Of a DNA stretch of 64,000 nt, positions 18,786-23,045 are shown in pieces (the first letter of the stretch is position 1; every line of letters begins with the position of its first letter). This DNA is from Natronobiforma cellulositropha (lineage in GTDB: Archaea > Halobacteriota > Halobacteria > Halobacteriales > Natrialbaceae). The stretch lies in NCBI RefSeq assembly GCF_025629245.1, contig NZ_JANZXN010000004.1, positions 114,858 to 178,857 of the forward strand, written 5' to 3'. The notes below the pieces were generated by a model. It was not told where the DNA came from. It ran no database searches and saw nothing but the letters and a program-made list of their open reading frames with translations. Both the position numbers and the translations under genes were made by a program.

Positions 18786-19580
18786 TCAGACCTCGAGCGC
18801 GAGACCGGCGCGCTCGAGTGCCTCCTCGACCGAGGCGTCCTCGTGGACGACAGCGGCGACCGCGCGCGTGATCGCCTCGGGGTCTTCGTGCTGGAAGATC
18901 GACCGTCCCATCGAGATGCCAGCGCCACCGGCGTCCATCGCGCCGCGGACCATCTCGATGGTCTCGCGGTCGCTGCCGCGGGCACCGCCGGCGATGACGA
19001 CGGGCAGGGCGGTCGAGCCGACGACGTGTTCGAAGCTCTCGGGGTCGCCGCTGTAGCCGGTCTTGACGATGTCCGCACCGACCTCCTCGGCGAGCCTGAC
19101 GGCGTGGCCGAGCGCCTGCGGGTCGCTGCCGTCGACGTCCGGACCGCGCGCGTAGGCCATCGCGAGGACGGGGATGCCGAAGCGGGCGGCCTCACTCGTC
19201 AGCTCGCCGAGCTGGGTGATCTGGCCGGGCTCGCTGTTCGAGCCGACGTTGATGTGAAAGGAGACGGCGTCGGCCCCGGCGCGGATCGCGTCCTCGAGCG
19301 TGCCGGTGCGGCGTTTGTCGTTCGGGTCCGGCCCGAGCGCCGTCGAGCCGTTGAGGTGGACGATGTAGCCCTGGCCGTTCTTGTTCGGGTGAACGCGCGC
19401 GGCGAGTCCTTTCTGGGTGAGGACGGCGTCCGCACCGCCGCGCGTGATCGCGTCGATAGTCGATTCGATCCCTCTGAGACCGTCGATTGCGCCGAGAGAG
19501 ATACCGTGGTCCATCGGGACGATGACGTAGGAGCCGTCTGTCCCGATCCGTTCGAGTCGTGCGTCGATTCCAGGAGTCAT
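18786..19580 (-). CDS. aroA': 2-amino-3,7-dideoxy-D-threo-hept-6-ulosonate (ADTH) synthase
   Basis: This 264-residue class I aldolase-like enzyme condenses L-aspartate semialdehyde with DKFP, the first step of the archaeal route to 3-dehydroquinate. Marks are YVIVPMDHGISLG near residue 18, LTQKGLAARVH, SFHINVGSNSE, KTGYSGDPESF with the Schiff-base Lys, and PVVIAGGARGSDRET. The start ATG 19580 fits the family. It follows trpA by 52 bp on the same strand, so it is probably transcribed with or just after trpCBA. That couples shikimate entry to tryptophan synthesis. Confidence 0.93.
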   Translation of the reverse strand: MTPGIDARLERIGTDGSYVIVPMDHGISLGAIDGLRGIESTIDAITRGGADAVLTQKGLAARVHPNKNGQGYIVHLNGSTALGPDPNDKRRTGTLEDAIRAGADAVSFHINVGSNSEPGQITQLGELTSEAARFGIPVLAMAYARGPDVDGSDPQALGHAVRLAEEVGADIVKTGYSGDPESFEHVVGSTALPVVIAGGARGSDRETIEMVRGAMDAGGAGISMGRSIFQHEDPEAITRAVAAVVHEDASVEEALERAGLALEV

Positions 19581-19632
19581 GTTGCGAGTGTATAGCAAGC
19601 TTTCTGTTATGGGTGTTTCTGATTCCGCCCGG

Positions 19633-20481
19633 CTACTGCTTCGTCGGGGCGTCGGCGAGTCCCGCCTCGGCACCGCCTTTCAGTTCGCGGGCTTTCGCCT
19701 CGAGCGCCGCGGCCGGGTCGTCGGCGTCGGCGATCAGGTCGATGAGTGCGGAGCCGACGATCACGCCGTCGGCACCGGCGGTGACGATTTCGGCGGCGTG
19801 GTCGGCTTCGCTGACGCCGAAGCCGACCGCCTTCGGCACGCCGTCAGCGCTGGCGTCGTACGCGGCCAGTCGCTCGAGGCTCTCGTGGGTCGCCCCGGAG
19901 ACGTCCGCGCGCGCGCCGGTCGTCCCGAGTCGCGCCTGGACGTAGACGAAGCCGGAGGCCTGGGACATGATCGTCTCGAGGCGCTCGCCCGCGGTCGTCG
20001 GCGCGACGATGAAGACGAGGTCGAGACCGAACTCCTCACAGGCGGCTTTCAGCGGGCCGCTCTCTTCGGCGGGTAAGTCGGGGACGATGATCCCAGAGAG
20101 ACCCGCCTCGGCGGCGCGCTCGACGAACGGCCGGACGTCCGGCCCGTCTCGTGACTCTCCGCTCGAGCCGTACTGCAACACCATGTTGTAGTAGGTCATC
20201 ACGAGCAGCGGCGCGTCGGTCTCGAGGTCGTCGACCATCTCGAAGAAGCGCCGCGGGGTCGTCCCCGCCGCGAGCGAGCGGTTGATCGCCGCCTGAATCG
20301 TCGGCCCTTCGGCGATCGGTTCCGAGAAGGGCAAGCCGAGTTCGATCAGGTCCGAACCGCCGCGGTCGAGCGCCTCGACGTAGGCTTTCGTCTCCTCGAG
20401 CGAGGGGTCGCCCGCGGTGATGTAGGTGATGAGCGCGGGGTGGTGCTCGCGAATCGCGCGCTCGATGTCGGAGTCGGTCAT
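19633..20481 (-). CDS. trpA: Tryptophan synthase alpha subunit
   Basis: This 282-residue TIM barrel cleaves indole-3-glycerol phosphate and passes indole to Trp[20 protein letters not shown] core [15 protein letters not shown] holds the catalytic Glu47. The position of E. coli Asp60 is Glu58 here, a change I believe recurs in haloarchaeal TrpA. The phosphate loop is GFGVSEADH plus [11 protein letters not shown]. The C terminus has an extra short tail ([12 protein letters not shown]). It overlaps trpB by 4 bp, so translation is coupled. Confidence 0.97.
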
Positions 20482-21713
20482 CGCTCGAACACCTCCACGT
20501 CCGGAGCCGCCTCGAGATCACGTTTCTCGGTCTCCTCGAGAACGGTCTCTAGGTCCTTATCGCCGCGTCCGGAGACGTTGACCACGACGACCTCGCCGAG
20601 GTCCTCGGCGGCGTCCTCGAGATAGCCGAGGGCGTGGCTCGACTCGAGGGCGGGGATGATCCCCTCGAGTCGCGAGAGGCGGTGGAAGGCGTTGAGGGCG
20701 GTCTCGTCGTCGACGCTGACCGGCGTCACCCGGTCGGTCGCGACGAGGTGGGAGAGTTCGGGACCGACGCCCGCGTAGTCGAGACCGGCGCTGACGCTGT
20801 GTGACTCCATGATCTGGCCGTCACCGCTCTGGAGGAGTTTCGTCATCGCACCGTGGAGGACACCGTCGGTGCCCGTCGAGAGCGTCGCCGAGTTGGGGGC
20901 GAGACCCGCCTCCTCGTCGATGTCGAGGCTCGAGCCACCGGCCTCGACGGCGTAGAGCGCCACCGACTCGTCGGGGACGAACGCGTGGAACGCCCCCATC
21001 GTGTTCGAGCCGCCGCCAGCACAGGCGACGACGCTGTCGGGGAGCCGTCCCGCCTGGGCCTGTATCTGCTCGCGGGCCTCCTCGCTGATGACCGCCTGGA
21101 AGTCCCTGACCATCTTCGGGAACGGGTGGGGACCGACGACGGAGCCGATGACGTAGTGAGTCGTCTCGACGGTCGTCGCCCAGTCGCGGAGCGTCGCGTT
21201 GATCGCCTCTTTCAGCGTCGCACTGCCCGCGTCGACGGGGTTGACCGCCGCGCCGTTCATCCGCATCCGGTAGACGTTCGGCCGCTGGCGGTTGACGTCC
21301 GTCCGGCCCATGTAGATCTCACAGGGCATCTCGAGGTGGGCTGCGGCCATCGCGGTCGCCGTCCCGTGCTGGCCCGCGCCCGTCTCGGCGATGATCCGCT
21401 CTTTGCCCATGTACTTCGCGAGCAACACCTGCCCGAGCGCGTTGTTGAGTTTGTGCGCGCCGCCGTGGACGAGGTCCTCGCGTTTGAGGTAGACCTCGCG
21501 GCCGTAGCGCTCGCTCAGCCGATCCGCACGCTGGAGCGGCGTCGGCCGCCCGCCGAACTCGCGCATGCGCTCTTCGAACTCGTCGAGGAAGCCGTCCTCG
21601 TTCTCGAGGACGTAGCGCTGGTAGGCGTCCTCGAGTTCCTCGAGCGCTGGCATCAGCGCCTCGGGTACGTACTGTCCACCGTAGCGTCCGAAACTCGTCT
21701 CGCTCTCGCTCAT
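20478..21713 (-). CDS. trpB: Tryptophan synthase beta subunit
   Basis: This 411-residue PLP enzyme joins indole and serine. Lys88 in [13 protein letters not shown] binds [17 protein letters not shown] grips the cofactor phosphate, and [12 protein letters not shown] is the substrate carboxylate loop. The start [10 protein letters not shown] is typical of the TrpB1 type that pairs with TrpA. It overlaps trpC and trpA by 4 bp each. Confidence 0.98.
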
Positions 21714-22480
21714 GTCTGTGTCTCCGTCTCTGCCTCGACCAGTTCGCGCGTCGTCGCGGTGACGTCCGCTCCGGCCATGATGGCGCTGCCGACCAACAGT
21801 GCGTCCGCGCCGGCCTCGCGCATCCGCCGGACGTCCGCCGGGGTCGAGACGCCGCTCTCTGCGATCAGGGTCACGTCCTCGGGGGCGTGCGGTGAGACCG
21901 CCTCGAACGTCGCTAAATCGACCTCGAGTTTCGCTAAGTCTCGGTTGTTGACACCGATCAGGTCGGCACCCGCTTCGAGGGCGACCGTCAGTTCCTCGCG
22001 GTCGTGGACCTCGACGAGCGGCTGAAAACCGCGCTCGCGGGTCGCCTCGAGCAGCGACTCGAGGTCGTCGACGAAGCGGACGATCAACAGGAGGAGGTCC
22101 GACTCGACCACGTCGAGGTGTTCCTCGCGGAGGACGAAGTCCTTCCGGAGGACCGGCACGTCGACCGCCTCGCGGATGCGCTCGAGTGACTCCGGCGAGC
22201 CACCGAAGTGGGTCGGTTCGGTGAGCACCGAGATGGCGCTCGCCCCACCCTCGACCATCGCGCGTGCGAGGTCGACCGGGTCGTCCTCTCGTGTCCCGTC
22301 GGTCGTCGGCGAGGTCGGCTTGACCTCCGCGATCACCGGTACCCGGCCGTCGGTCTCGGCGCGCTCGAGCGCTGCCGGGAACGAACGCGCCTCGACGGCG
22401 ACCCGTTCGCCGCCCGTCCGCGCTCGCGCAGCCTCGAGAATCGACTCGACTGCGGGAGCCAGTTCTTCACCTTGGTTCAT
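21710..22480 (-). CDS. trpC: Indole-3-glycerol-phosphate synthase
   Basis: This 256-residue barrel closes the indole ring from CdRP. Catalytic residues lie in [15 protein letters not shown], where the family reads xKxxSPS, in VLRKDFVL, and in LIGVNNRDL and LIAESGVST. It is the first gene of trpCBA. ATG 22480 lies just past a TGTACA dyad that covers the promoter. The other trp genes (trpDEFG) are not in the window, as in haloarchaea that split the pathway into two operons. Confidence 0.96.
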
Positions 22481-22482
22481 TG

Positions 22483-22510
22483 TTGTACATCAACGTACGC
22501 ATGTGTACAA
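22483..22510. promoter_or_regulatory. TGTACA dyad on the trpCBA promoter, candidate tryptophan operator
   Basis: TTGTACA at 22483-22489 and TGTACAA at 22504-22510 form a perfect inverted repeat, and CGTACG sits exactly at the centre (22494-22499). The three palindromic TAC elements are 10 bp apart, one helical turn. The right half overlaps the minus-strand TATA-like CTTTTGTA, and the dyad ends 3 bp before the trpC ATG. TGTACA is the reported TRP-box consensus of TrpY in Methanothermobacter, so a TrpY-like repressor is plausible. Confidence 0.6.
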
Positions 22511-22574
22511 AAGCTTTGCGCCCTCGGAGCCGCTGCGGCGAATATTGAAGTCCGGCCCGCCCTTCTCACGTAGC

Positions 22575-23045
22575 ATGGACGACGATCCGGAGTCGGGAAT
22601 CTACGCGCGCGAGTCGCCGTACCTCGAACGGTTCGTACAGATCGGCGTCGCGAGCGGCCGCCTGCTGCGCGTCTCGTTCCCGGAACACCCCGACGAGAAC
22701 GCGCGAGCGGACCACCCACTACTCGAGCGACTGTTCGAGTACCTGGCGGGCGTCGAGGAGGTGGGCTTCGAGGAGGTCGAGGTCGCGCTGACGATGGCGA
22801 CCGACCAGCGGGCGGTCCTCGAGAGCCTCCGGACGGTTCCCTACGGCGAACAGGTCGACGTGACGACGCTCACCCGGATGACGGCTGGACTCGACCCCGC
22901 AGACGACGAGGACATCGTGCTCGTGCGGACGGCGCTCGCGGAGAACCCGCTCCCGATCGTGATCCCCGACCACCGCGTGCGCGACGGCCCGAGCGCTGCG
23001 CCGCCGCCGGTCGAGCAGAAACTGCGCTCGCTCGAGGGTCTCTGA
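22575..23045 (+). CDS. MGMT-like alkyltransferase-like protein lacking the active cysteine
   Basis: This 156-residue protein has the C-terminal DNA-binding domain of O6-alkylguanine-DNA alkyltransferase (about 85-150). It shows VPYGEQVDVTTLTRMTAGL and NPLPIVIPDHRVR. True enzymes read IPCHRV; here the acceptor Cys is Asp, so it cannot accept an alkyl group. Alkyltransferase-like proteins with other replacements flag damaged bases for nucleotide excision repair, which is a possible role. ATG 22575 is preferred. It is divergent from trpC, 94 bp between starts. Confidence 0.85.
   Translation: MDDDPESGIYARESPYLERFVQIGVASGRLLRVSFPEHPDENARADHPLLERLFEYLAGVEEVGFEEVEVALTMATDQRAVLESLRTVPYGEQVDVTTLTRMTAGLDPADDEDIVLVRTALAENPLPIVIPDHRVRDGPSAAPPPVEQKLRSLEGL

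Follow-up and report, generated by a model that had tools for sequence, protein, structure and literature searches.

A conserved 10-bp-spaced array of TGTACA boxes at the haloarchaeal trpC promoter is probably a TrpY-type TRP-box operator

In 2005 Xie and Reeve reportedly described TGTACA as the TRP box of the tryptophan regulator TrpY in Methanothermobacter thermautotrophicus. Box binding and repression by TrpY are described in PMC6737238, where the haloarchaeal homologues form a separate, unexamined branch; close homologues of a second archaeal regulator of aromatic amino acid genes, Tar, are found mainly in Thermococcales (PMC6737238). Haloferax and Halobacterium are genetic model archaea in which trp genes and tryptophan serve as standard tools for selection and induction. 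A search confined to the open-access literature returned no paper naming a regulator of their trp operons.

The window considered here is a stretch of 64,000 nucleotides from the haloarchaeon Natronobiforma cellulositropha, and it carries trpC, trpB and trpA on the minus strand (Table 1). The gene for ADH synthase is probably the last of this operon; the enzyme catalyses the opening reaction of the aromatic pathway in archaea, and its counterpart in Halobacterium salinarum, OE1472F, belongs to the operon trpCBA-OE1472F (PMC4162585). The divergent neighbour of trpC (22575-23045, plus strand) resembles an alkyltransferase-like (MGMT) protein, with a PF01035 score of 26.4 bits, just below the cut-off, and PDHR in place of the usual active-site PCHR; its ATG lies about 65 bp from the end of the box array.

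Table 1. Promoter elements and genes of the trpCBA region, with related arrays elsewhere. Plain numbers are window positions; G000 is the genome of the window; negative numbers count from the trpC ATG.
Feature	Position	Strand	Remarks
Box 1, TGTACA	22504..22509	-	-24 to -29; overlaps TATA-like element; TGNNCA-type box in 81 trpC loci
Box 2, CGTACG (family consensus MGTNCR)	22494..22499	-	-14 to -19; GTNC: G in 81/81, T in 80/81, C in 81/81 loci
Box 3, TGTACA	22484..22489	-	-4 to -9; 3 bp before ATG; distance to ATG fixed in compared loci
TATA-like CTTTTGTA	22506..22513	-	Shares bases with box 1; conserved CTTA/CTTT directly 5' of box 1; information profile
BRE-like CGCAA	22516..22520	-	Both A in 81/81, C in 78/81 loci
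trpC, indole-3-glycerol phosphate synthase	21710..22480	-	PF00218, 240.6 bits
trpB, tryptophan synthase beta	20478..21713	-	PF00291; best matches are trpB inside trp operons
trpA, tryptophan synthase alpha	19633..20481	-	PF00290, 280 bits
ADH synthase (2-amino-3,7-dideoxy-D-threo-hept-6-ulosonate synthase)	18786..19673	-	TIGR01949, 355.9 bits, cut-off 299
Methyltransferase arrays	G000:C7:354270-354322 (L008:1480-1532); L360; L363:1463-1500		10-bp register; three haloarchaeal lineages
NSS transporter pairs	L334:1501-1522; L335:1501-1522		Directly before ATG

Read directly from the sequence, the region before trpC contains a perfect 7-bp inverted repeat, TTGTACA at 22483-22489 and TGTACAA at 22504-22510, whose centre (22496.5) is the middle of CGTACG at 22494-22499. 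The three boxes start at 22484, 22494 and 22504, exactly 10 bp apart. On the minus strand the promoter reads GGGCGCAAAGCTTTTGTACACATGCGTACGTTGATGTACAACAATG, with the BRE-like CGCAA followed by the TATA-like CTTTTGTA running into box 1, then by box 2, box 3, ACA and the ATG (22480). Judging from its position, we infer that CTTTTGTA is the TATA element of trpC, and CGCAA would be the BRE of the same promoter. The preliminary description of this DNA had reported a TGTACA dyad with central CGTACG just before the trpC ATG; its coordinates, 10-bp spacing and overlap with the TATA-like element are all exact. The window has one occurrence of TGTACA-N(8-30)-TGTACA, none of 100 dinucleotide shuffles has any, and the exact 20-bp-spaced pair has this single occurrence in the 3.76-Mb genome. 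The number of triple arrays expected in the window from base composition is 1.6e-5.

We compared the promoter with 80 further trpC loci obtained in one scan of sequenced species and selected by similarity of the TrpC protein, not by promoter, in genera including Natrinema, Haloferax, Halorubrum, Haloarcula, Haladaptatus, Halorussus and Halarchaeum. All 81 haloarchaeal loci proved to have the array in an unchanged register, with 3 bp between its end and an ATG; the few non-zero ATG offsets in this set reflect a different tblastn start. The consensus is CGCAAGNCTTW-TGTACA-NATNM-GTNC-RTTRR-TGTACA-NYA-ATG, and positions of the promoter carry 1.46 bits of information on average, those of the 57 bp upstream 0.05. 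A sequence-only model of the array (R1) found matches in 41 of 41 genomes of the window's family and in 135 of 145 genomes of the class; the ten genomes missed have trpC and a degenerate array at the same place. All 53 best-match loci checked were trpC, with the match farther from the aligned start in two of them, where the alignment begins at residue 23. Other promoters of the same genomes gave no match to R1. The paired boxes at 20-bp spacing for which the preliminary description proposed to search upstream of trpC in other haloarchaea are a feature of all genomes compared, in degenerate form in 10 of 145, and the array has been kept, not lost, in the relatives. In Halorubrum trpC promoters (e.g. 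L048, L060, L065), box 3 is extended to a palindrome, TTAGTGTACACTAA, that runs into the start codon, and box 1 reads TGAACA, so that the better of the two boxes is now the one on the start side.

Weaker secondary R1 matches recurred as well, and where such matches were shared among genomes and fetched, they turned out to lie at trpD, in a second tryptophan operon, trpDFEG. Fifty-three distinct trpD promoters follow the pattern CTTAAGTnGA TGTACWnAYT TGTACATTAC AAsACGAAnA CGTACATTGG TGTnCACWATG, which consists of five 10-bp units, with units 1, 2, 4 and 5 TGTACA-like and unit 3 degenerate. In the window's genome this array precedes the trpD start at G000:C51:6311 (L097:3264-3311), and its unit 5 is degenerate. 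The exact pair TGTACA-N4-TGTACA was found at 31 places in the 145 genomes, compared with 3 for the reversed control pattern, and 22 of the 29 places fetched were trpDFEG promoters; the boxes are nearly restricted to trp promoters. The second operon, which includes trpE, the other gene proposed for that search, carries them upstream of trpD in an extended form, and the earlier count of three sites is correct for trpC, while trpD has four good boxes within a five-unit register. The trpD transcript could be leaderless, with the TATA element in unit 3, or have a short leader, with the TATA element at CTTAAG.

Anthranilate-synthase-like genes on two other contigs, C24 (L091/L094, with phenylacetate-type neighbours) and C56 (L093/L096), were considered as trpE and rejected, since neither has an upstream array and trpDFEG lies on C51. 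The C24 locus (G000:C24 ~244915-247526; L094:4916-7527) contains a second gene for an anthranilate-synthase-like component I, lacking a trp box array. Its neighbours are a gene of the nitroreductase family, amidohydrolases and genes of phenylacetate catabolism, and it perhaps serves aromatic degradation or a secondary pathway.

Leaderless haloarchaeal promoters are compact, and the conserved block includes the BRE-like and TATA-like parts and the ATG. A core promoter and start-codon context preserved by descent, with no regulator involved, would account for these features. Against this, conservation of the middle box and of box 3 roughly equals that of the TATA region, R1 is unmatched by the other promoters of the same genomes, and trpDFEG and distant outgroups (see below) keep the 10-bp register in sequences that otherwise differ. 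We regard descent without a regulator as very improbable, and read the boxes as a probable operator.

Outside the trp operons, the window's genome contains a second R1 match at C7:354290, which at 10.6 bits and E=2.2 is not significant alone. It precedes a gene whose product is similar to class I SAM-dependent methyltransferases; the product has no Pfam match, and its homologues are so annotated. The exact-pair search separately picked out a homologue from another family (L360, 39% identity). A third one, in Haloarcula halophila (NZ_CP119560.1), is the one haloarchaeal homologue that the plasmid collection contains; it was chosen by protein similarity alone and likewise has TATACATCAGTGTACA before it. 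A 10-bp array occurs at each of the three methyltransferase loci (p=0.002), a figure biased for the first two, which were found by pattern. Homologues of this methyltransferase are also carried by Rhodococcus, Acinetobacter and Bacillales plasmids. An exact TGTACA-N4-TGTACA was also observed directly 5' of the ATG of an NSS/SNF Na+-dependent transporter gene (PF00209) in two genomes of one genus; among the genes induced in H. salinarum without aromatic amino acids are Na+-dependent transporters (PMC4162585). The methyltransferase in three haloarchaeal families and the transporter in one genus are possible extra targets; the transporter is a candidate tryptophan importer, and the methyltransferase, of unassigned function, may belong to tryptophan metabolism. 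Most dyads with 1-2 mismatches elsewhere in the genome score low with the operator matrix and were discarded. A TGTACA-like cluster with 18-22-bp tandem repeats was seen at G000:C24:196681-197494, not adjoining a trp gene.

The preliminary description had also called for a TrpY homologue. The window's genome encodes one, a 167-residue TrpY-family protein at G000:C17:10037-10525 that scores 238 bits with NCBIfam NF053754 (cut-off 180), and exactly one such protein is present in each of the 145 class genomes. Its C-terminal ACT signal is weak, below the Pfam cut-off, and sequence comparison returned no solved relative. ACT-domain matches on C45, C57, C9 and C6 were ruled out as TrpY by sequence and length. 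The trpY gene (contig C17) is separate from the trp operons on C34 and C51, and none of 27 haloarchaeal trpY promoters inspected has a box array. Among 47 TrpY sequences, drawn from the class and from 17 further families, 44-45 retain a segment VDRRVVD.T, the putative recognition helix.

Within the haloarchaeal class boxes and TrpY cannot co-vary, because both are universal there; the comparison also took in the phylum Halobacteriota. A TrpY-family match above the cut-off was found in 117 of 119 genomes; both exceptions belong to one family (f19), one genome having no TrpY match at all and the other a weak partial one. Heads of trp operons were scanned for three boxes at spacings from 7 to 14 bp, with p-values taken against 500 dinucleotide shuffles; box weights were set after the sequences had been seen, and the comparison between spacings is independent of them. 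A significant 10-bp three-box array (p<=0.004) was detected in 20 of 27 TrpY-bearing genomes outside haloarchaea, and among the eight spacings 10 bp scored best in 21 of 29 operon heads, where about 3.6 are expected. The array is kept in most of the related methanogens examined. No array was found at the trp operon heads of the two f19 genomes without TrpY (0/2), nor in two genomes of family f14 (0/2); the sampled TrpY proteins of f14 and f17 have DRKVV..A in place of DRRVVD.T. Three families (f13, f15 and f27) have TrpY and no convincing array, and the trp operon head of f23 was not located. The comparison of boxes with TrpY across the phylum, with arrays in 20 of 27 genomes that have TrpY and in 0 of 2 that do not, involves few negatives and several TrpY-bearing genomes lacking the array.

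These data bear on the identity of the factor. The boxes could be the operator of another tryptophan- or aromatic-responsive protein, such as the Lrp-family LrpA2/Trh1, with TrpY doing something else: in H. salinarum a lack of aromatic amino acids induces lrpA2 (trh1) 14.9-fold, and a regulatory role has been proposed for it (PMC4162585), and other roles are possible for TrpY homologues (PMC6737238). The hexamer is, however, the known TrpY box, and the 10-bp array recurs in a phylum where TrpY is near-universal and is absent from the two TrpY-less genomes, which makes a different factor improbable. We consider TrpY the factor that acts through the trp boxes of haloarchaea, with a probability of roughly 0.84. 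The earlier proposal of TrpY-type control of the haloarchaeal trp operon by the same box is well supported by the conserved arrays and the universal single TrpY. The feature is probably a TRP-box operator of TrpY type, representing a variant of TrpY/TRP-box control.

The three boxes, one per helical turn, would lie on one face of the DNA and extend over the core promoter of trpC, beginning at the TATA element and reaching the transcription start, which is expected at or near the ATG, the transcript probably being leaderless. As the boxes are one turn apart, contacts should be made from that face, and binding may be cooperative. When tryptophan is plentiful, TrpY would occupy neighbouring boxes; because box 1 and the TATA region have bases in common and box 3 extends to -4, occupancy should exclude TBP/TFB and RNA polymerase. 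The N-terminal, conserved helix of TrpY would be the putative DNA-binding element and the C-terminal ACT-like domain is expected to sense tryptophan. The same protein would also cover the trpDFEG promoter, where the array is longer and keeps to the 10-bp register. In H. salinarum all 7 trp ORFs are induced when aromatic amino acids are absent (PMC4162585), which fits repression. The native Haloferax trpCBA promoter is called "not tightly regulated" in a passage of PMC13147458 citing Large et al. 2007, which suggests that the range of repression there may be modest. An activator site or a two-way switch was also weighed, since Thermococcus Tar acts on this pathway as an activator, through TGGACA-N8-TGTCCA (PMC6737238). 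Tar sites, however, lie upstream of BRE/TATA with a start-to-start spacing of 14 bp, whereas the boxes here are spaced by 10 bp, overlap the TATA element and reach to 4 bp from the start codon, so that protein bound there should obstruct the basal machinery. Activation or two-way switching through the array is accordingly unlikely, and we retain a repressor operator as the preferred reading.

Together, the results provide a concrete, testable pair of operator and factor, and suggest a phylum-wide ancestral regulon. We lean slightly towards a scheme in which a 10-bp multi-box TrpY regulon was ancestral to most of Halobacteriota, and haloarchaea came to have no autoregulation by boxes and two trp operons, gaining the methyltransferase and, in some genera, an NSS transporter perhaps importing tryptophan. 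TrpY dimers would sit on adjacent turns, two of them on trpD boxes 1-2 and 4-5.

Compared with the Methanothermobacter system, the haloarchaeal one has the same TGTACA box at a trp promoter, boxes lying over the core promoter and a TrpY-family protein in the genome. It differs in that the trp genes are split into trpCBA-ADH synthase and trpDFEG, and in that trpY does not adjoin the trp genes and is without a box, whereas in Methanothermobacter trpY lies divergently to the trp operon and regulates itself through boxes, an arrangement that is not general in the TrpY family. The haloarchaeal arrays are strictly 10-bp, with three boxes at trpC and five units, four of them good, at trpD. With Tar (TK0271) of Thermococcus kodakarensis the locus shares a TGNNCA-type dyad at archaeal aromatic amino acid operons (PMC6737238), although Tar is an activator bound upstream of BRE/TATA and the trpC array extends from TATA to ATG. 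TkTrpY (TK1227), of the same family as the haloarchaeal protein, shows no specific binding or regulation of its host trp operon (PMC6737238), so homology alone is no proof of function. LrpA2/Trh1 of H. salinarum, of the Lrp family and with no direct link to these boxes known, is connected with aromatic amino acid limitation through its expression (PMC4162585).
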